Below the pieces are notes generated by a model. That model had not been told where the DNA came from. It saw only the letters and a list, made by a program, of their open reading frames with translations, and searched no databases. The position numbers and the translations under genes are program-made. Shown piece by piece: positions 18,769 through 29,841 of a DNA stretch of 64,000 nt (positions are counted from its first letter, which is position 1; every line of letters begins with the position of its first letter). This DNA is from Streptomyces sp. NBC_00433 (GTDB lineage Bacteria; Actinomycetota; Actinomycetes; Streptomycetales; Streptomycetaceae), in NCBI GenBank assembly GCA_036015235.1, contig CP107926.1:2542001-2606000 (forward strand), read 5' to 3'.

Positions 18769-20012
18769 CCTCCCGCCGGCCGCGGTCGCTCAACCCCTCC
18801 CCGCCCCGACATCACGCCGACTAGTGCGCTGAGCAGGCATTCCACTTTCGAGCGGTCGAGCGTCGTGGCGGAGTTGGTGATGAACCATCACCCACTCTTC
18901 TGACCTGCGGCGCAGCCGCCGATCCCGCGCTGACCAGGCGTTTTCCCGATGGCCGATGTTGGCGTCCGACGGCCGATTTCGACTGCGCTGCGGACTGTTT
19001 GCGGACCGCATCCCGCCAGTACGTGGCGAAGACCGATCTCGAATCATTCTTCGTCAGGGCCCAAGGGGAAGTCGGGAAATTTCTCTTCGGAGCGGAGGGG
19101 GCTTCGGCTGCCGCCGGCTCGGTGAGTTCGACCTCGTGGCCGCGTACTTGTGCGATGAGCCGGATAACGACGGTTCCGGCTTGCGTCCTCAACCCGGTCC
19201 GCCGCCGGATCCAGGATTATCGCTCTCGTTTGATGCGCCGCAGCCGTTCGGCAGTCATGACATCGGGGAAGTCTCTGCGATCTATTTCGTTGCGCTCTGC
19301 GCGGCAGAGATTTCCGGCAAGAAATCCCTTACGTCGGCGCGCGCACATGAATGCTCGAGGACGGGCGGCCGCCTCCGGGGCGCGCGGGCCACCTCAAGGT
19401 GAGGCCCAGGGCACGCAGCGTGGCCGAGCAGTGCCACAATTTTCACACTCGCCACATCCGCCCCACCACTACCGGAATGCGGAAATACCAGCACCCGGCG
19501 CGATTCAGCCATTTCCCTCACGCACACCCCAGCGTGTCGGTCGGAAGGCCCAGCGAGAGGTGCGCCCCGGTGACGTGCACATGGTGCACGGCGGCAGGGT
19601 TTTCCGCTCGGCCGTACCGCTTTCCGCTGTCGGCTGATCGGCGTCTGCGTCTGCGGCGGGCGGCAGCGGGCCGGTTCCGGTCGCCTTGACGAGTGGTGGA
19701 CTGAACCCCATGCTGGTGATTCGGTCGGCTGGCGGGCTTTCCCATCATGATGTCCGGGAAACGGCCCCGAGTACGCCGCACGGAATGCACGCAGGAATCA
19801 GCGGAACGCATGCACCCGATGTCCACATGAGATATCGATGTGAACTCGGCGTACAGTCGATAGGCGTGATCGCTTTACCGCCTCGTGAAAGAGCACCGTG
19901 CCCGTAGGCGCGGCCCTGACGCAAGGAACCGTGATCAGATGAGACCGCAGGCTCCCGGCCACGATTGCGGCCGGCTTCGCAACCGCCGTCACATTGCTTC
20001 GCAGGGGCCGAT
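18769..20012. other. Non-coding stretch with a decayed element end
   Basis: Between the AAA+ gene and the XRE regulator I find no convincing gene in 1.24 kb. It starts with the degenerate parE-tail repeat (18846-19010). Beyond that, open frames of 80-210 codons exist on both strands but have no recognisable domain, Shine-Dalgarno sequence or consistent third-position GC pattern. It looks like decayed junction DNA of the accessory island. Confidence 0.5.
18846..19010 (-). repeat. parE-tail repeat, copy A (degenerate attachment-like site)
   Basis: This segment matches copy B (25489-25652) over about 165 bp at roughly 85% by eye. Its first 45 bases also resemble the last codons of parE at 31870-31915 in the same orientation. 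The core GAGTTGGTGATGAAC is shared with only one base differing from copy B. The frame encoding the ParE C-terminus is broken here, so this is the oldest or most diverged copy. The shared 120 bp beyond the parE-like part is absent from parE itself and probably comes from the end of an integrated element. Confidence 0.6.
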
Positions 20013-20588
20013 GTGACGGGCATGCCGGAGGGCGGAGGACCGGGTCGCCCGCTCCAGGTGCGCCGGACCCCCGTGCTCCCGCCCGGGACGGCACCCGCTG
20101 CCCCACCTCACGTCCCGTCCGCGGTCGCGCACCCGGCGGGCGGCGCCGCCCTCTCGGCGCAGCGGCGCCTCGGCCTCACGCTCTACCGCCTCCGGCTGGA
20201 ACGCGAACTATCGCTACGCGCGCTGGCCCGACTGCTCGGCTACAGCGCCCACAGCGTCTTCGTGGACGTTGAGCGGGGGCAGCGGCTGCCCTCCGAAGCG
20301 CTGGTGGGCGCCTACGAGCGTGCCTTCGGCCTGCCGCCCGGCTCGCTGCTGAATCTGCGCCGGCAGGCGCTGGCCGAGCGGGCGGAGCGCCTGACCGACG
20401 CGCTGTCCCGCACGTTGGAGCCGGCGCCCGCTGTACCGCTCGCCGTACCGTCTGCCGCGCCCGCCTCCCGCTGGCGCAGCAGGGCCATCCGCGTCGCGTC
20501 GGCCCTTGTCCGGCTGCCGACCGCCGCCCGAGGCCCCGGCCGCCTCCCGAGCGCCCCGGACGGGAGCGATTCCCGCCCCCGGCTGTGA
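20013..20588 (+). CDS. XRE-family helix-turn-helix regulator
   Basis: A 191-residue protein with a DNA-binding domain at about residues 50-110: LGLTLYRLRLERELSLRALA, then LLGYSAHSVFVDVERGQRLP, the usual five-helix XRE layout with a Glu-Arg turn after the recognition helix. The N-terminus is Pro/Ala-rich and the C-terminus is an unstructured basic tail without membrane segments. GTG 20013 has AGGGG five bases upstream; ATG 20022 is an alternative. It lies at the 3' end of, and convergent to, the TPR/M50/peptide cassette on the minus strand, and is a candidate regulator of it by position only. Confidence 0.7.
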   Translation: MTGMPEGGGPGRPLQVRRTPVLPPGTAPAAPPHVPSAVAHPAGGAALSAQRRLGLTLYRLRLERELSLRALARLLGYSAHSVFVDVERGQRLPSEALVGAYERAFGLPPGSLLNLRRQALAERAERLTDALSRTLEPAPAVPLAVPSAAPASRWRSRAIRVASALVRLPTAARGPGRLPSAPDGSDSRPRL

Positions 20589-20751: not shown

Positions 20752-22914
20752 TCACGCGGCGGCGAGCCGCTGCCTGCACTCCTCCAGCGCCTCCTGCACC
20801 TCCGGGTCGTCGGGGGTGTCGGCCGCCGCCGCCTCGAGGTCGGCCAGCGCCTCGTCCCAGCGGCCGACGCTGCGCAGCACGAACGCGCGGTTGTAGCGGA
20901 TGGCGGGGTCGTGGGGCGCCGCCTCGACCGCGCGGCCGAAGTCGTCGAGGGCGGCGTCGGATTCCCCGGCGTCGAAGGCGAGGCCGGCCCGGCCGCACAG
21001 CGCGACGACCAGGTCGGGGGCGGCGGAGAGCGCCCGGTCGAAGGCCGTCCGGGCGCTCTCCGCCTCCGCGCGGTCGGCGTGCAGCCGGCCCAGCGCGGCG
21101 AGGAGCAGCGGGCTGTCCGGAGCCAACTCCAGCCCCGCGCGGATGTCGTGCTCGGCTGCTTCGGTCTCACCGCGGTCCAGGAGCAGGCCCGCACGGTTGA
21201 CGTAGGCGTCCACGAACCCGGGATCGAGTTCGAGCACGTAGCCGAAATCGGCGAGCGCACCCTCCTCGTCGCCCTGCCCGTTCCGCAGGTCGCCACGGTT
21301 GTAGTACAGCTCGGGGAAGGGCGGACCGAGCCGGGTCACGGTGTCGTAGGCGGCGGCGGCCTCCTCGTGACGGCCCATTCGCTGGAGGAGGTTGCCCAGG
21401 TCGAGGTGGTACTCGGGGTAGTACGGGTCCGCGTCGATCACCACGCGGAATTCGGCGAGCGCCTCCTCGTACCGCCCCAGCCCCGTCAGCACGGTGGCGC
21501 GGTTGTGGCGCAGCACCGAGCGATGCAGATCGTGCTCGCCCTCGCCGAGTTCGCGGTCGAGCGCGGCCATGCCCTGGGTGACGAGTTCCAGCGCCTCCAA
21601 CGGGCGCCCCCGGTGGGCCTCGATCAACGCAAGCCCGTTGTGGTGGAAGACGGTGCTGAAGGCCCGGCTGCGAGCGTCGGGCAGGAGGCCGGAGATGGCG
21701 ATGGCCGTGTTGATCCATGCCGTCGCCCGCTCGTGGTCCCGGCGGCCGGGCGCGCGGTGGCGGGTGTACAGCATGGCGGTGGCGTACGCGACCTGCATGT
21801 GGACGCGCGGGTCACGCAGGTGGACGCGGGCCTCGTCGCAGATCGCCTCGGCCTCGTCCGCCCGGCCGAGTGCGGACAGCGTGGTGGGGAGCAGCGTGGA
21901 GAACGTCCAGCGTCGGCGCGCGGTGGTCTCCCAGTCGGTCAGCGCCCTACCCCGTCGGCAGAAGTCCAGCACTGCGTCGTAGAAGCCGTGCAGCACGCAG
22001 GTGGTCATCGCCTGCTCCATCGCCGCCAGGCCCGCACCGAGCGGATCCGAGCCGTGCTCGCGGTGGAACGGCAGGGCGCCGAGCGCCGTAACGGGGTCTT
22101 CGGCCGCCTCCAGTTGGTCGGCGCGTGTGTCGTGCAGGCGCTGCCGCTCGTCCGGTGCCAGGTCACGGTACGCCGCGAGCATCGCCGGGTCGTCGTCCCG
22201 GCAGTCGCCGGCCACGTACCGCGCCGCGAGCGCGCGCGGCTCCCCGGGCGATCCGGCCGGCGCCTGGGCGGGGGCGCAGTCCACTCGGCGGCAGTACCGC
22301 AGGAGAGCGGTGGGCAGCCGCTCGCCCAGGGGGGTTCCGGGTTCGGCGGGCGCCTCCGCGGCCGGGTCGAGCAGCCCGGTGGTGCCCCCGGCCACCACAG
22401 TCAGCACCGCCGGGTCCATCCGGCGCAGCAGGACCGCGATGAACTCCGCGTCGGTGGGGTCGGCGTGGTCGAGGCCGTCGACGACCACGGCGCAGGGACC
22501 CTGCCCCGGGGCGGACAGCAGGTCGTGCAGGAACTCCTTGAGACCGTGCGCGATGCGCAGCGTCCGCTGCCGGGCGTAGAACCGGGTCCGCTCGCTCGGC
22601 ACCGCCAACGAGGTCAGCGTCTCCTGGGTGGCGGGAACGATGCCGCGCAGGTCGTCGGCGGCGGTGAGGATCTCCACCTGGTGCGTGGCGACCAGATCCG
22701 GGCGCTCGATCAGCGCCGCCGGCACCAGGGCGCGCATCAGCGCGCCGGCCACCGTGTACGGGCCACCCGACCGCCGGTTCGCGTCGATCACCCGCACCGC
22801 GGGATGCGCGGGGCCGGGCAGCAGCAGCGTCCCGAGGCACTCGCGCCGGTCTCGCCGCAGCGCTCCGGCCAGGAAGAGGTGAGCGGGGGCCGGCTGGTGC
22901 GTCGGGTCAGACAT
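20752..22914 (-). CDS. TPR protein with degenerate NTPase-like N-terminal domain
   Basis: A 720-residue protein starting at ATG 22914 (GGGAG seven bases upstream). Residues 15-330 resemble a STAND/AAA-type NTPase: VRVIDANRRSGGPYTVAGAL at the P-loop position, a Walker-B-like CAVVVDGLDHADPTD, and AVLTVVAGGT. The P-loop lacks the GKS/T lysine, so ATP hydrolysis is doubtful. Residues about 420-715 contain a run of tetratricopeptide repeats (for example LDLGNLLQRMGRHEEAAAAY and AALGRLHADRAEAESARTAF). It is the last gene of a three-gene minus-strand cassette, 17 bases after the M50 gene. A scaffold or substrate-recruiting role for the short peptide is plausible but not shown. Confidence 0.75.
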   Translation of the reverse strand: MSDPTHQPAPAHLFLAGALRRDRRECLGTLLLPGPAHPAVRVIDANRRSGGPYTVAGALMRALVPAALIERPDLVATHQVEILTAADDLRGIVPATQETLTSLAVPSERTRFYARQRTLRIAHGLKEFLHDLLSAPGQGPCAVVVDGLDHADPTDAEFIAVLLRRMDPAVLTVVAGGTTGLLDPAAEAPAEPGTPLGERLPTALLRYCRRVDCAPAQAPAGSPGEPRALAARYVAGDCRDDDPAMLAAYRDLAPDERQRLHDTRADQLEAAEDPVTALGALPFHREHGSDPLGAGLAAMEQAMTTCVLHGFYDAVLDFCRRGRALTDWETTARRRWTFSTLLPTTLSALGRADEAEAICDEARVHLRDPRVHMQVAYATAMLYTRHRAPGRRDHERATAWINTAIAISGLLPDARSRAFSTVFHHNGLALIEAHRGRPLEALELVTQGMAALDRELGEGEHDLHRSVLRHNRATVLTGLGRYEEALAEFRVVIDADPYYPEYHLDLGNLLQRMGRHEEAAAAYDTVTRLGPPFPELYYNRGDLRNGQGDEEGALADFGYVLELDPGFVDAYVNRAGLLLDRGETEAAEHDIRAGLELAPDSPLLLAALGRLHADRAEAESARTAFDRALSAAPDLVVALCGRAGLAFDAGESDAALDDFGRAVEAAPHDPAIRYNRAFVLRSVGRWDEALADLEAAAADTPDDPEVQEALEECRQRLAAA

Positions 22915-22931
22915 GGGTTCTCCCGTTGCGG

Positions 22932-24197
22932 TCAGGCGGAAGCGGGCGCGGCAGCCTCGGTGGTGGAGGCGCTTGCCCGCCGCTCGCGGACGTACATCGT
23001 GACGGCGACGGCCGTCTCGCCCAAGCTCAGTACAAGGAACAGCAGGCTGTCGGCGAGACCGACGCCGCCCTGGTGGCCGTTGCCGGCCAGCCGGGTGACC
23101 GCGGTGCCGAAGACGTGGACAAGGATGGGCAGCAGCGTGAGGAGCAGCGTGGCCAGGCAGAACGCGTAGCCGACGACCATCAGCCAGGAGTACCAGCGGG
23201 CCACGAGGTGGTCCCGGGGATGCCACTGCTCCGGGTCGTAGGGGGCCGGCCGCCGCAGTAGCGCACACCACCGGTTGGCCAGTAGCTGGCGCGCGGTCGT
23301 CTGGAGGTCGACGCAGCCCAGCACGGTGACGACCAGGTAGTAAATGTCCGTCTGGAGGAAGAAATACCCCTGCCAGACCAGACGCAACAGCGTGGCATAG
23401 GCCAGTGCGAGAAGTACGGCACCGGCCGGCGGGAAGCCGCCGCCCGCACGGTGGGTGCCGGCGGCGAGCAGGGTGAGCACCGCGAAGCAGCCGACGTCGG
23501 TGAGCATGCCCGCGAGCATCGGCAGGTAGCGGCTGCGTCGCGGCACCCCCGCGAGCCCGTCGAGGTTGGTCTCGAACACCACGTAGTACAACCGTCTTCC
23601 GATGGACAGCCGCGAGGGCACGCCGAGCCGCCGTCCGGCCAGGGCGTGCGCGGACTCGTGCAGCAGGATCAGCGGGAGCTGGCCGACGAACAGCGTCAGC
23701 GTGAGCACCGACATGTAATGGGTGAAGAAGACGTTGTGGTAGCGCGGTGCCGCGTCGGGGACGCGCACGACCACCAGGACGCACGCCGCCAGCAGCGCCG
23801 TATAGAGCACCGCACCGACGGGCGAGAAGACCGCGCGGCCCAGCTGCCGCCATCGCAGGGGGCGCGCGGGCAACGGCTCGGGGATGCCGTCCGCACGCAG
23901 GAAGCCGAGTTCCGTCAGCTCGGCGGCGAAGTCGTCGATGTCGACGGGGTCCCCGTACTCCTGCTCGTACCAGCGGGCCGCCTGCCGCGGCGGCGTGCCT
24001 TCGACCAGCCGCCGGAGCAGCGCGGCGCCGTCGGCGGGCAGTACGACGAAGGTGCCCTCGTCCATCCGGCCGACCGTCACTTCGTCCCCTTCGGGCTGGA
24101 AGGTCAGCGGGTGGAAGGCAAGCGGTTCGTCGTGGGCCTGTACCGCCGTCTTCCCGGCGGGGGCGGCCTCGGCGGAGGCGGGCGATTGTTCGGGCAT
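22932..24197 (-). CDS. PqqD-like domain fused to M50 membrane metalloprotease
   Basis: A 421-residue protein; ATG 24197 follows GGGGGAG. Residues 40-110 resemble the PqqD/RRE peptide-binding fold (TFVVLPADGAALLRRLVEGT and DDFAAELTELGFL). From residue 125 there are about eight membrane helices, with the M50 zinc motif LLHESAHALAGRRLG (HExxH) in an intramembrane position. M50 site-2-like proteases with an RRE/PqqD domain occur in ribosomal peptide clusters, where they bind the leader and cut or export the product. It lies between the 29-residue peptide gene and the TPR gene on one strand. No modification enzyme (radical SAM, YcaO, LanM, B-protein) is present nearby, which is unusual. Confidence 0.75.
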   Translation of the reverse strand: MPEQSPASAEAAPAGKTAVQAHDEPLAFHPLTFQPEGDEVTVGRMDEGTFVVLPADGAALLRRLVEGTPPRQAARWYEQEYGDPVDIDDFAAELTELGFLRADGIPEPLPARPLRWRQLGRAVFSPVGAVLYTALLAACVLVVVRVPDAAPRYHNVFFTHYMSVLTLTLFVGQLPLILLHESAHALAGRRLGVPSRLSIGRRLYYVVFETNLDGLAGVPRRSRYLPMLAGMLTDVGCFAVLTLLAAGTHRAGGGFPPAGAVLLALAYATLLRLVWQGYFFLQTDIYYLVVTVLGCVDLQTTARQLLANRWCALLRRPAPYDPEQWHPRDHLVARWYSWLMVVGYAFCLATLLLTLLPILVHVFGTAVTRLAGNGHQGGVGLADSLLFLVLSLGETAVAVTMYVRERRASASTTEAAAPASA

Positions 24198-24256
24198 GGC
24201 TCCCCCGGGGGCTGGTGTTCGGAACGGAGCACGGCGGGACGCGGTGCGGGGGCGGG

Positions 24257-24297
24257 CCTCGGCGATGGGCGCGGTGCCGGCTGGCCCATCGCCGAGG
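24257..24297 (-). terminator. Attenuator-like hairpin after the peptide gene
   Basis: A perfect 14-bp stem (CCTCGGCGATGGGC, 24257-24270, pairing with 24284-24297) with a 13-base loop. It lies between the peptide stop (24307) and the M50 start (24197). Such partial terminators are common after RiPP precursor genes and keep precursor mRNA in excess over the processing genes. Confidence 0.5.
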
Positions 24298-24306
24298 TTG
24301 TCACGG

Positions 24307-24396
24307 TCAGGCCAGGTCGCAGGGGGGACCGCCGTAGAGCGAAGCGGAGGTCGTCAGGCGCACCGAGCCCGCCTTGCGGATCTTGATCTTCTTCAT
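24307..24396 (-). CDS. Candidate ribosomal (RiPP-like) precursor peptide, 29 residues
   Basis: A 29-residue peptide with a near-perfect ribosome site, AAGGAGG, eight bases before ATG 24396. The N-terminal part is very basic (MKKIKIRKAGSVRLT, a leader-like segment). The C-terminal part is small and modifiable (Thr, Ser, Ala, then LYGGPPCDLA with one Cys). It is first in line with a PqqD-M50 membrane protease and a TPR protein, and a stem-loop follows it, as in precursor genes. It is too short for most gene callers. It could be a bacteriocin-like or signalling peptide. Without a modification enzyme nearby, proteolysis alone or trans-acting enzymes would have to mature it. I am confident about the open frame and start, moderate about function. 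Confidence 0.65.
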   Translation of the reverse strand: MKKIKIRKAGSVRLTTSASLYGGPPCDLA

Positions 24397-25488
24397 TCCG
24401 TCCACCTCCTTCCGGGATGTGTCGCTTTCATTGGTAGCCCGCGGGCAAGACCCCTGTCGCCGGTTGCGACCACCCCTGGCACAAGCCCAGAACGCCGGCA
24501 GAACACGCGGCCGGCGGCGCATCCGTCCGGCCCGGCCTCGGCAAGGGCCGCACGGCGGATCAAGCCCCAGGACACGGCGCGGCAATCGGCAGCCTGGTCT
24601 CCGACCGGTCAGCCCGACACACGACCGTCGGCAAGCCGAGCCCCGAGTTGGTCCCCGCCCGCCCGACACCCTGCTGATCAGCCCCGAGCCGAATCGCCGG
24701 ACAGCCACGACCCGACCTCACCGGCTCACCGGCTCACCGGCTTGTTGGCTGTCGTCAGCCGCGTACGCCCGAGCAGGAGCCCTCGACGGTCCTCCGACAC
24801 GTGGCCGGTCGCCGCCACAGCCCGAGGATCAATTCGAGTACGGCGGCCGGCTGGGAGAGGCCCGTGTGCTGGACCCGTCCCGGCTCAGCTCGACCGCCTC
24901 TCGGACGAAGGCCGACGTCCGCCGCACCGTCCGGGTGTCACCGGGCACGCGCCGGCAGATGACGTGGTATCCCGCCCCGGCCTCGCTCATCCAGCAGCCC
25001 TCCGCAGCGTCGGCAAGCGCGTTCAGCCGGCGCTCCGGTACCTGGATCCGGTGCCTGGAGCAGCCCCTCAACCTCACTCATGTTTCGCAAAGCCTGTCGG
25101 ATCGTCCGCCGTGAGCCTCAGCAACGGCTCCGCCATGACACGCCCTTCCACATCCGGTCTCGGCCAACCCGCACGCCAAGGCCGTCGCCCGGCTGCACGC
25201 CCCTTGGCCGGCCTTGCAGGAGCCACGGGCAACGGTTCCGGCCAAGATCGGTGCATCGATGTGGCACCGCGACCACCTTTGACCATCCCTGCTGCAACTG
25301 CGCGCCCCCGACGGCACGTCGAGGCGTGCGCCACGAGCGCGGACACCTGCGACGAGGGCGAAGCAGAGGCCCGCGGTGGCCTGAACACGCCGAGAACTGA
25401 CGCGACGTCAGCTCCCTTGCCGACTGTGTGCGGGACTGCAAAAGGTCCCTGAGCCCGCTCGGCTGCAAAGCCGCAGGTCAGACGTCGA
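24397..25488. other. Region without recognised genes upstream of the peptide cassette
   Basis: About 1.1 kb with no gene I can support. It must hold the promoter of the peptide operon just before 24396, but no clear -10/-35 pair stands out. A short tandem of the 8-mer CACCGGCT/CACCGGCT lies near 24718-24741. Long open frames on both strands look like GC-driven noise. Confidence 0.45.
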
Positions 25489-25652
25489 TCTTCGAGCGGT
25501 CCAGGGTCGTCGCCGAATTGGTGATGAACCATTCGGCCACCTTTCTGACCTGCGGCGAAGCCGCCGATCTGCGCTGACCAGGCGTTTCCCCGATGGCCGG
25601 CGTTGGCCCCCGACGGCCTTTTTCGACTGTGCTGCGGACCGTTTGCGGACCG
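25489..25652 (-). repeat. parE-tail repeat, copy B (attachment-like site)
   Basis: On the minus strand this segment still encodes WFITNSATTLDRSKIDV and a stop, nearly identical to the ParE C-terminus (FITNSASTLDRARIDV at 31869). The homologous stretch begins at about 25482. The preceding 120 bp match copy A (18846-19010) but not parE. This pattern, a gene tail restored next to foreign DNA, is what tyrosine-recombinase integration at a gene 3' end leaves behind. Confidence 0.65.
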
Positions 25653-26488: not shown

Positions 26489-26492
26489 TTAG

Positions 26493-26515
26493 GGCGCGTA
26501 TCGAGTCGTGATCAA
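26493..26515 (+). repeat. Left inverted terminal repeat (IS5-type)
   Basis: A 23-bp sequence beginning GGCGCGTATCGAG and ending GTGATCAA. It is the exact reverse complement of 28742-28764. It abuts the truncated aldo/keto reductase. Confidence 0.7.
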
Positions 26516-26588
26516 TCCGCGGGATTCACCCTCGCAACAAACGCTGATCGCGGGGCCAACGGGCGGTCGCACTGGATGCGCATGCCGG

Positions 26589-28169: not shown

Positions 28170-28745
28170 GGGGCGCGTTCTCCGTGGGCAGTGCTCACAC
28201 GGGGATCCGAGCGCGAAGAGCGGCGACGCGTCCGACGGCGGCAGAAACTCCGCCTGAAGGCCGCTCGGACGCTCCAGGGGCGGGCAGACCAGCAAGGTCC
28301 ACCTCGTCGCCGACCGGAAATGCCGCCCCCTGGTGTTCGTCCTGACCGCAGGTCAGGCCGCGGACAGCCCGCAGTTCATCCCCGTGCTCAAGAAGGTACG
28401 GGTCCGCGGGCCCGCACCCGGCCGGGCGCTGTCGCCGGGGATAAGGCCTACTCGTCCCGCGGTAACCGGGCCCAGCTGCGCAAACGCCACATTAAGGCCG
28501 TTATCCCGGAGAAGAAGGACCAGGCCGCCAACCGGAAGAAGAAGGGCTCCCGTGGTGGTCGGCCCGTCAGCCTCGACGCCAACCTGTCCAAGGAGCGCAA
28601 CGCTGTCGAGCGTCTGATCGACAAGCTCAAGGCCTGGCGAGGCATCGCCACTCGGTACGACAAGACCCCGGACAGCTACCTCGCCGGTCTTCACCTGCGC
28701 GCCTCGATCATCTGGATCAAAGACCTCACCCGGACCACCCATTGA
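28170..28745 (+). pseudogene. IS5-family transposase remnant (C-terminal half, frameshifted)
   Basis: Frame by frame the DNA reads RAAT...TPPEGRSDAPG, then GRSRGGQTSKVHLVADRKC and FVLTAGQAADSPQFIPVLKK, then GDKAYSSRGNRAQLRKRHIK and NAVERLIDKLKAWRGIATRY. These are the central and C-terminal parts of an IS5-group DDE transposase, with the last Glu in NAVERLI. At least two frameshifts and loss of roughly the first 110 residues make it inactive. The stop codon lies at the inner edge of the right inverted repeat, as in intact elements of this group. Confidence 0.75.
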
Positions 28746-28764
28746 TCACGACTCGATACGCGCC
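28742..28764 (-). repeat. Right inverted terminal repeat (IS5-type)
   Basis: The exact inverted copy of 26493-26515. Followed directly by CTAG and then by the IS481-family element. Confidence 0.7.
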
Positions 28765-29718
28765 CTAGCTGTACTGACCTGTGAGGTTGGGGACGCGGGT
28801 GGCTGGTGGTTGGCCGCCAAGGGCGGTGTGTCCGCGGTGGTGATTGTAGGTGTGGAGCCATTGCGGGTAGGCGTCGCGTCGTTCTTGTTCGCTGCGGTAG
28901 GGCCGTGCGTAGGCCCATTCGTCGAGCACGGTGCGGTTGAGGCGTTCGACTTTGCCGTTGGTCTGCGGCCGGTAGGGCCGGGTTCGTTTGTGTGTGATTC
29001 CGGCCGCTGTGAGGCTGTCGCGCCATAGGCGGGAGCGGTAGCAGGAGCCGTTGTCGGTCAGGACGCGTTCGACGGTGATGCCGGCCGAGGAGAAGTAGTC
29101 CTGGGCGCGGGTCCAGAAGCCGGTGGCGGTCTCCTTCTTCTCGTCGGCGTGGATCTCGCTGTAGGCGAGGCGGGAGTGGTCGTCGACGGCGGTGTGGATG
29201 TAGCTGTAGCCGGCGCCGGAGCGGGTTTTGCGGCCTGCCTGGCGGCCGAGGACCTTGTGGCCGCCGCCGTCGGGGATGTTGCCGAGTTTTTTGATGTCGA
29301 CGTGGACGAGTTCGCCGGGGCGGTCGCGTTCGTAGCGGCGGATGACGCGGCCGGTAGCGCGGTCCAGGTGCGTCAGGCGGGCCAGGCCGAAGCGGGTCAG
29401 GACCCTGTGGACCGTGGAGGGGTTCAGGCCCAGCAGGCCTGCGATGCGGGCCGGTCCCCACCGGCGCAGGACACGGACCTTGATGATCCGCCGCTCGGTG
29501 CGGGACGGGGTCCGGTGAGGGCTGTGCTGTGGCCGGGAGGAGCGGTCGCTCATGCCCGCCTCGCCGTACTGCCGGTAGCGGCCCGCCCATCGCTGGGCCG
29601 TGGTCGGTGAGACCTGGAAGCGTTCGGCCGCCCGCCGAAGCGGCCAGCCATCGTCCACGACGCAGCGGGCAAGGCGGAGACGGCCGGTCTCGGTCAGAGG
29701 TGCATTACGGTGAGGCAC
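28765..29718 (-). CDS. IS481-family transposase
   Basis: A 317-residue transposase. GTG 29718 (AAAGG upstream) is chosen over 29760 because family members begin with the equivalent of MPHRNAPLTETGRLRLARCV. The N-terminal helix-turn-helix (GWPLRRAAERFQVSPTTAQR) is followed by the rve/DDE integrase core: LVHVDIKKLGNIPD (first D), ERVLTDNGSCYRS (second D), and NGKVERLNRTVLDEW (E). The end reads VPNLTGQY then Ser and TAG, where TAG comes from the CTAG target duplication and not from the element. No frameshift is seen, so the element may still be active. Confidence 0.9.
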   Translation of the reverse strand: MPHRNAPLTETGRLRLARCVVDDGWPLRRAAERFQVSPTTAQRWAGRYRQYGEAGMSDRSSRPQHSPHRTPSRTERRIIKVRVLRRWGPARIAGLLGLNPSTVHRVLTRFGLARLTHLDRATGRVIRRYERDRPGELVHVDIKKLGNIPDGGGHKVLGRQAGRKTRSGAGYSYIHTAVDDHSRLAYSEIHADEKKETATGFWTRAQDYFSSAGITVERVLTDNGSCYRSRLWRDSLTAAGITHKRTRPYRPQTNGKVERLNRTVLDEWAYARPYRSEQERRDAYPQWLHTYNHHRGHTALGGQPPATRVPNLTGQYS

Positions 29719-29841
29719 GAGGGCCTTTCTGGTCGCCGGTGCAGATGTCGCAATCCACACCAGGCCAGAAGGCCCTCACCCACTGCAAGATCCCACAGCC
29801 GAGACCGGCATCACTCCTCCACAACCTCCCGGGTCAGTACA
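28769..29841 (-). mobile_element. IS481-family insertion sequence, apparently intact
   Basis: The ends are imperfect inverted repeats: TGTACTGACCTGTGAGGTTG at 28770-28789 and its counterpart (TGTACTGACCCGGGAGGTTG when inverted) ending at 29841. CCTAG occurs on both sides (28764-28768 and 29842-29846) and fits a 5-bp target duplication. One complete transposase gene fills it. The insertion sits exactly at the right end of the IS5-type unit, a CTAG target. Confidence 0.75.

Follow-up and report, generated by a model that had tools for sequence, protein, structure and literature searches.

The window analyzed here is a 64,000-nucleotide stretch of Streptomyces sp. NBC_00433 (contig CP107926.1, positions 2,542,001 to 2,606,000), whose genome is a single contig of 8.99 Mb. 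The subject of this analysis is a compact cassette on its minus strand, in which a 29-codon open reading frame (ORF) is followed by the genes for a 421-residue membrane protein and a 720-residue tetratricopeptide repeat (TPR) protein, with intergenic gaps of 109 and 17 bases, respectively. A sequence-only reading of this DNA had proposed a 29-residue peptide with the ribosome-binding sequence AAGGAGG and a leader-like N-terminus, a membrane M50 protease with a PqqD-like domain, and a TPR protein whose P-loop has lost its lysine. All three assignments were borne out: the peptide has a conserved family leader, the protease has an HESAH motif and the fold of a RiPP recognition element (RRE; RiPP, ribosomally synthesized and post-translationally modified peptide), and the loss of the lysine is family-wide. 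The features, in window coordinates, are as follows.

24403..24411, minus strand: ribosome-binding site AAGGAGGTG of the peptide gene, 6 bases ahead of the ATG, read from the sequence.
24307..24396, minus strand: precursor peptide gene MKKIKIRKAGSVRLTTSASLYGGPPCDLA, 29 codons, from the ORF, the family alignment and a profile search.
24352..24396, minus strand: leader, residues 1-15, MKKIKIRKAGSVRLT, family consensus MKKIxVRKAGxVRLT.
24307..24351, minus strand: variable core, residues 16-29, TSASLYGGPPCDLA, and stop codon, with Tyr21 and Cys26.
22932..24197, minus strand: fusion of an RRE with a site-2 protease (S2P, family M50), 421 residues, from sequence, alignment, AlphaFold2 (AF2) model and structure comparison.
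23889..24128, minus strand: RRE (PqqD-like leader-binding) domain, residues 24-103, Z 10.3 to 6jx3_B and 5v1u_A and 8.2 to PqqD 5sxy.
23646..23660, minus strand: HESAH zinc motif, residues 180-184, with Asp284 and Asp383 as additional invariant residues; matches to RseP and SpoIVFB structures.
20752..22914, minus strand: pseudo-NTPase TPR protein, 720 residues, from Pfam, alignment and AF2 model.
22753..22779, minus strand: degenerate P-loop position, residues 46-54, NRRSGGPYT; family form RLRGPYT, with no Lys (alignment A2).

The peptide is found where the protease is found. In a genus sample of 35 genomes, in which protease relatives were sought at E<=1e-3, 24 genomes contained a relative, and a regular expression recovered an ORF resembling MKKI.(V/I)RK.G.VRLT before the protease in 26 of the 30 loci (L023, L024, L025 and L027 were without). 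We also took 120 regions around protease relatives of Streptomycetaceae, 94 of which (L052-L145) were pooled because the TPR gene was present. The other 26 (L146-L171), which hold distant M50 proteins, had no TPR gene, L168 only because the region ends inside the L072 cassette. A scan of named genomes returned 219 protease relatives, and the best 80 of these were kept without being picked for the TPR gene; both peptide and TPR gene were present in all 80. These named loci span Streptomyces, Kitasatospora, Streptosporangium, Lentzea, Actinokineospora, Nocardia, Actinoplanes, Micromonospora and others. The resulting pool of 174 loci is overlapping, since some genomes are in two collections, and contains 153 distinct protease sequences in 86 clusters at 80% identity (the protease of L143, cut short in this count, was taken as its own cluster). 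Peptide, protease and TPR gene occur together in 173 of the 174, with 171 peptides found by pattern and two by eye; the latter, in L115 and L122, begin with MQKM and were missed by the regular expression. L102 is the sole pooled locus without a normal leader and has only the core-like RLTTACYYSCSQA. TPR matches are partial in some loci (L122, L144).

The reverse test gave the same association. A profile built from 50 peptides (alignment A3) was run as a six-frame search against 394 Streptomycetaceae genomes and returned 125 matches at E<=0.01, 115 of them at E<=2e-6. For every one of these 115, a protease relative is found no more than 1.6 kb away. Conversely, the peptide accompanies 104 of the 105 close relatives of the protease, in 74 genomes. 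Here, close relatives are those down to E 1.1e-52; all regions retrieved up to that limit contained the TPR gene, 11 of the 105 not being among them. Ten weaker peptide matches (E 8e-5 to 0.01) were not beside any listed protease and were excluded as probable noise. Conservation of the peptide beside M50/TPR relatives was the test that the sequence-only reading had set for itself, and both directions of the search upheld it. Nor was the frame disruption that it had told others to look for seen: an unbroken frame was present in 173 of the 174 pooled loci, in three near-identical loci (M50 proteins 94-97% identical), where the single change in the core is Leu to Val, and in a second cassette of the same genome (L053, G000:C1:381491-385648), which has an intact peptide MKKITVRKAGTVRLTSAAASAYCCGAS, a protease 51% identical to that of the window, a TPR gene and an adjoining flavin reductase.

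The cassette is present in 74 of the 394 Streptomycetaceae genomes, about a fifth, with up to four copies per genome (G007). Judged from these searches, the system is common in the family and patchy elsewhere, because the protease profile matches only 4 of 396 genomes in a phylum-wide sample at E<=1e-10, the host genome included. The closest relative in the scan of named genomes is Streptomyces sp. NRRL F-5123, with a protease 97% identical, and one annotated record of the cassette labels the protease 'hypothetical protein'. Outside the phylum, Ktedonobacter racemifer (Chloroflexota, L190) has the whole cassette, with a protease 46% identical and the core SGSTPLYGMCIY. This cassette suggests transfer between phyla.

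The peptide ORF is a real, conserved gene of a precursor family with the form MKKIxVRKAGxVRLT-SAA-xxxY..C. Four to eight bases of AAGGAGGTG precede 189 of the 190 precursor ORFs found by regular expression, with the best start chosen. Arg7 and Thr15 of the leader are invariant in all 50 peptides of alignment A3, and in a comparison of 147 distinct segments, the stretch KK...R...LT keeps its first Lys, its Arg and its Thr without exception despite varying codons. The same segments give a pN/pS of 0.157 in a pairwise count that makes no correction for relatedness, a value which indicates that the leader is under purifying selection. The alternative that there is no peptide gene at all, and that a conserved RNA leader or a chance ORF precedes the protease gene, draws on the very short length of the ORF and its lack of a database family: the window precursor had no match in Pfam or NCBIfam, and five other precursors had none in NCBIfam. 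Against it stand the pN/pS value, the ribosome-binding site, synonymous codon change with residue conservation, and strong profile matches that fall solely beside these proteases. We consider this explanation extremely improbable and rejected it on the codon pattern and the protease association.

After the LT of the leader the sequence becomes variable. Among the 140 distinct peptides there are 126 distinct cores, 9-25 residues long with a median of 14, and every one of the 126 contains both Tyr and Cys. As a control, 830 other short ORFs preceded by ribosome-binding sites in the same loci were sampled in 200 draws, and tails with both residues made up 2.1% on average and 5.6% at most. The first Tyr stands at position 7 after LT in 86 of the 126 cores, and some Tyr lies at positions 5-8 in 125 of them. 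Tandem precursors, two to six copies with different cores, were found in 10 of 171 loci, which represent seven distinct sets. Actinorhabdospora filicis (L245) has six such precursors upstream of its protease.

We read the product of the second gene as a site-2 protease whose active site is intact and which bears an RRE at its N-terminus. Pfam alone gives little indication of this architecture: PqqD is sub-threshold on the window protein (E 0.16), and among the 56 members of alignment A1 (what is left of the 94 proteases after thinning at 80% identity) Peptidase_M50 was matched at E<=0.05 in 10 and PqqD in 4. The residues H180, E181, H184, D284 and D383 are invariant in all 56. In the AF2 model (mean pLDDT 91), the N-terminal region consists of three strands and three helices in the RRE/PqqD order. 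Residues 24-103 superimpose on the leader-bound lasso B1 proteins TfuB1 and TbiB1 with Z 10.3 and a root-mean-square deviation of 2.2-2.3 A over 78-79 residues, and on PqqD with Z 8.2. The membrane part gives Z 8.9 to RseP and 8.7 to SpoIVFB. An HExxH motif in a membrane helix, a distal Asp and the S2P fold, as seen in model and alignment, are what characterizes a site-2 protease of family M50. RRE domains are known from RiPP enzymes.

The TPR protein was modeled by AF2 with a mean pLDDT of 94.9, and its C-terminal half is a TPR superhelix. Residues 62-168 match AAA_16 (profile positions 77-161) at E 1.7e-4, which is below the Pfam cut-off, and this match leaves out the P-loop part of the model. 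Matches to AAA_16 at E<=0.01 were obtained for 17 of the 42 family members in alignment A2. Walker A, GxxGxGK[ST], is not present in the family, and RGPYT stands in its place, residues 50-52 being R-G-P in at least 90% of the 42 rows (the window protein has G at 50). The loss of the P-loop is a derived feature and not damage, because RGPYT is family-wide. At E<=0.01, the window protein matches 25 Pfam families, all TPR-like or AAA_16, with no helix-turn-helix (HTH) domain among them. The helical domain BTAD is also matched by 10 of the 42 members; for the alignment as a whole, the listing covers 25 of 40 families.

Downstream of the TPR gene, a flavin oxidoreductase occupies the same-strand slot in 76 of the 174 loci, or 38 of the 86 clusters. 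Three families are represented: flavin reductase PF01613 in 65 loci (in one example assigned at E 1.5e-38), Old Yellow Enzyme-type FMN oxidoreductase PF00724 in 8, and NADPH-dependent FMN reductase PF03358 in 3. In all 73 of these loci with a called TPR end, the flavin-enzyme homology starts no more than 300 bases from that end, and for 17 of 35 called flavin genes the start lies within the TPR stop, with a 4-base overlap. The host genome contains 10 PF01613, 2 PF00724 and 9 PF03358 genes, from which we estimate a chance expectation of ~0.4 in 174 loci for a flavin gene in a 1.8-kb same-strand slot. No match of the host genome to these three families falls inside the window, so that the cassette studied here has no flavin enzyme beside it, whereas the second cassette of the same genome does. 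In three further loci the flavin reductase lies upstream instead. Neighboring genes were called by a crude GC-frame heuristic that misses genes; under tblastn the flavin reductase count rose from 40 to 70 loci. Ten downstream ORFs were compared with Pfam, and two had no family, while the others included non-flavin proteins (short-chain dehydrogenase/reductase, SMI1_KNR4, DUF6629, a folate enzyme).

No tailoring enzyme was found beside the window copy. In L143, the downstream slot is occupied by a called gene for rSAM_ocin_1, a radical SAM C-methyltransferase of RiPP type that scores 603 bits with TIGR03975 (cut-off 282). It is the only adjoining radical SAM gene noticed, and none was seen by eye among the recurrent neighbors (28 largest clusters listed). 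A crude CxxxCxxC scan returned 8 ORFs, including farther-out ones in L180, L227 and L232, and missed the L143 enzyme. In L180 (Actinokineospora auranticolor) an ORF with CPLHCPYC, PqqE-like radical SAM by eye, lies at -4529 to -3417 from the protease and probably belongs to a separate cluster. The earlier statement that no modification enzyme is nearby thus holds for flavin enzymes in the window and fails for the family, with its flavin enzymes in 76 of 174 loci and its radical SAM gene in L143.

Regulatory genes recur near the cassette. A gene resembling a Streptomyces antibiotic regulatory protein (SARP), judged by eye, was found in 43 of the 174 loci (20 of 86 clusters), mostly convergent and just downstream; 29 of 44 copies are encoded on the other strand, between +3.3 and +4.4 kb. 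The 22 BTAD genes of the host genome predict a chance level of ~4% per 16 kb. In the window, the place taken elsewhere by the SARP-like gene holds an ORF (19965-20588, plus strand), XRE-like helix-turn-helix by eye and convergent with the TPR gene. Counting the window, 6 pooled loci, about 4 of them distinct, have a homologous ORF in this position (neighbor cluster 21). In L074, L077, L079, L091, L097-L100, L103 and L106, genes that look by eye like those of an XRE regulator and an ImmA/IrrE-like protein adjoin the cassette, often accompanied by one that looks like a membrane protein gene; XRE and IrrE each occur in 5 of the 86 clusters. One ABC-type ATPase cluster was present in 12 of the 174 loci.

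Two sets of repeats lie near the cassette. A direct repeat of ~162 bases (18847-19008 and 25491-25652, 87% identical, spacing 6644) brackets it, with two more partial copies and two short fragments elsewhere in the genome, and the cassette may have come in or been moved as an island. Farther out, a 27-base perfect inverted repeat occupies 26490-26516 and 28741-28767, and one arm abuts a transposase-like ORF (28765-29760). Among the distant protease relatives, those on the plasmids L253 and L254 follow a ThiF-family adenylyltransferase. Short ORFs with IxIRKLDKxETT-like motifs occur in L253, L147, L164 and L171 (not in L254), in tandem in L147, and these loci are possibly a sister peptide system.

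We interpret the cassette as a RiPP-like system in which the RRE binds the leader and the S2P cuts it, probably with a flavin-linked redox step, and we hold this interpretation to be probable. A ribosomal precursor with a conserved leader and a variable core is encoded alongside an RRE, recognized by its fold, and these are two of the marks of a RiPP locus. From the RRE fold and the conservation of the leader, we would expect the basic segment KKIxIRKxGxVRLT to dock as an added strand on the N-terminal RRE. The fused S2P, whose fold and active site are backed by model and conservation, would then cleave near the SAA/Tyr junction; the site and the direction of cleavage are putative. A Tyr/Cys peptide of roughly 7-12 residues would be set free at or across the membrane. 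Leader removal by the daptide peptidase MpaP is a precedent for such a cut, and EpeP offers a parallel for release to the outside. With its NTPase-like domain lacking a P-loop, the TPR protein may serve as a non-hydrolyzing peptide carrier or receptor. The Cys, and possibly the Tyr, would undergo a redox step fed by reduced flavin, for which the window copy would borrow a flavin oxidoreductase in trans. Given the recurrence of convergent SARP-like genes, the product may be under the kind of regulation seen for a specialized metabolite or a signal.

Several observations weigh against this interpretation. The nearest Cys ranges from 6 residues ahead of the Tyr to 16 behind it, so that no single cross-link geometry fits, and a related peptide at a plasmid locus rich in transposases (outside the pooled set) has neither Tyr nor Cys. 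More than half of the loci, the window included, have no adjacent flavin enzyme, so that this enzyme may be dispensable or have no connection with the system. Neither an exporter nor an immunity gene is a constant part of the cassette. The RRE call is fold-based: the Foldseek E-values are weak (0.09 or worse), and the two sequence matches of the protease profile in the PDB, which are the same lasso B1 proteins, are non-significant (E 0.64 and 0.82). The overall S2P matches, at Z 8.3-8.9, fall in a range that the aligner warns may be a common helical arrangement, and the S2P assignment leans on the conservation of HExxH and Asp. The product, the cleavage site and the leader-RRE binding are predicted.

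The cassette could instead encode an unmodified peptide pheromone, whose precursor is cut by the S2P and leaves or re-enters the cell, with the TPR protein as its receptor, as in RRNPP systems. The presence of the TPR gene in all 80 named loci would fit such a role, as would the SARP-like genes with their recurrent opposite-strand position, and the cores are similar inside a protease cluster and different across clusters in a pheromone-like manner. However, none of the 25 Pfam matches of the window TPR protein is a DNA-binding family, RRE domains are known from RiPP enzymes, and the obligatory Tyr and Cys together with nearby flavin enzymes suggest chemistry on the core. We regard a pheromone as unlikely, if still worth serious consideration. 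The same residues bear on the suggestion of the sequence-only reading that the peptide is an unmodified, protease-matured signal or a new peptide class. Protease maturation, as signal or new class, is still the best reading; 'unmodified' is less secure than it was made to appear, since Tyr and Cys are in all distinct pooled cores and a flavin oxidoreductase is often downstream.

The Tyr and Cys might also be the raw material of a redox cofactor in the style of PQQ or mycofactocin, with the flavin oxidoreductases as its users or makers. The near-fixed Tyr, the constant Cys, the RRE and the downstream oxidoreductases are compatible with this proposal, but the Cys-Tyr spacing is not fixed as such a precursor would need, arrays of up to six precursors with differing cores argue for different products, and the only adjoining radical SAM gene noticed is that of L143. 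A cofactor seems to us very improbable, and membership in the PQQ/mycofactocin type was rejected on the spacing. It is very improbable, too, that the peptide, without itself being matured, acts as a regulatory ligand whose docking on the RRE turns the protease toward other membrane substrates. A small gene beside a protease, with no constant exporter, is what one would see in that case, but neither a lineage-specific tail with its constant Tyr and Cys nor tandem copies with differing tails would be needed in a ligand. Among these possibilities, maturation of the peptide by the RRE-S2P fusion is the reading that we carry forward.

Known systems resemble the cassette in part. RRE-site-2-protease fusions were the entry point to the daptides, in which, according to the available part of the source, several short precursors (MpaA) are processed by MpaP, a protease with an N-terminal RRE on an intramembrane S2P that removes the leader (PMC10036551). 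The daptide leader motif ELExMEAP is absent here (E[LI]ExME occurs in 0 of 140 peptides, which have KKIxIRKxGxVRLT instead), and none of the 126 cores ends in the invariant C-terminal Thr of daptides. The decarboxylase/aminotransferase/methyltransferase group was not noticed by eye among the 28 largest neighbor clusters listed from rough gene calls. Neither a TPR partner nor a flavin slot is named for the daptide genes in the consulted part of PMC10036551, and MpaP was compared by description, not by sequence. Daptide membership was rejected because leader motif and C-terminus differ; the system works like a daptide system but is not one.

Epipeptide systems have an epimerase, and none was noticed by eye among the recurrent neighbors here. 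The epipeptide pair EpeX/EpeP and the pearlin proteases TglG/TmoG resemble the cassette in that a short ribosomal peptide is matured by an M50 protease of the membrane, with EpeP thought to cut and export it (PMC10885120, available in part). Pearlin systems have tRNA-dependent ligases, according to the same portion of that paper, and by eye none was noticed among the recurrent neighbors. The lasso B1 proteins and PqqD, leader-bound structures included, are the closest solved folds of the N-terminal domain. They are stand-alone domains serving other enzymes, whereas here the domain is fused to an S2P, and the consensus leader lacks the YxxP-type recognition motif, a loose [YWL]xxP match being present within the first 20 residues in 6 of 140 peptides. 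FxSxx-COOH systems (NF040586) likewise combine an actinobacterial peptide, a metallopeptidase and an NTPase-TPR protein, but as described in the accessible part of PMC7159879 they have a different peptide, a zincin-like peptidase and a radical SAM enzyme in place of the RRE-S2P and the P-loop-less TPR protein. The window TPR protein matches the TPR part of NF040586 at E 5.9e-4. Its 18.4 bits compare with a cut-off of 300, and FxSxx-COOH membership was rejected on this score.

RRNPP quorum sensing uses a short peptide, a membrane M50 protease (Eep) and a TPR protein. An RRNPP receptor joins its peptide-binding TPRs to an HTH or other output domain. Here no HTH output domain was found on the TPR protein and the protease bears an RRE; receptor membership was rejected on the absence of HTH from the Pfam matches of the window protein. 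No publication on this precursor family was found in a literature search whose coverage was thin for subscription papers and bioRxiv and did not extend to supplements. A figure in PMC12710340 shows 13 recognition motifs, one of which could be this leader. The precursor family looks to be undescribed so far, the RRE-S2P fusions themselves being already known from daptides.

A more far-reaching proposal, which we put forward tentatively and consider doubtful in its full form, is that the cassette represents a new RiPP class of Actinomycetota reaching into Chloroflexota. In such a class, a peptide matured by an RRE-S2P would have its Tyr and Cys joined or oxidized in a reduced-flavin-dependent manner, a P-loop-less TPR protein would act as carrier, and the supplier of flavin would have been recruited independently from three unrelated families. 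With leader, core, leader-binding domain and protease, the three genes form about a minimal peptide-maturation pathway. Since this minimal three-gene system is in hand, leader docking by an intramembrane protease is directly testable. The obligatory Tyr and Cys, and the flavin enzymes from three unrelated families in one slot, are a lead to unknown peptide chemistry.

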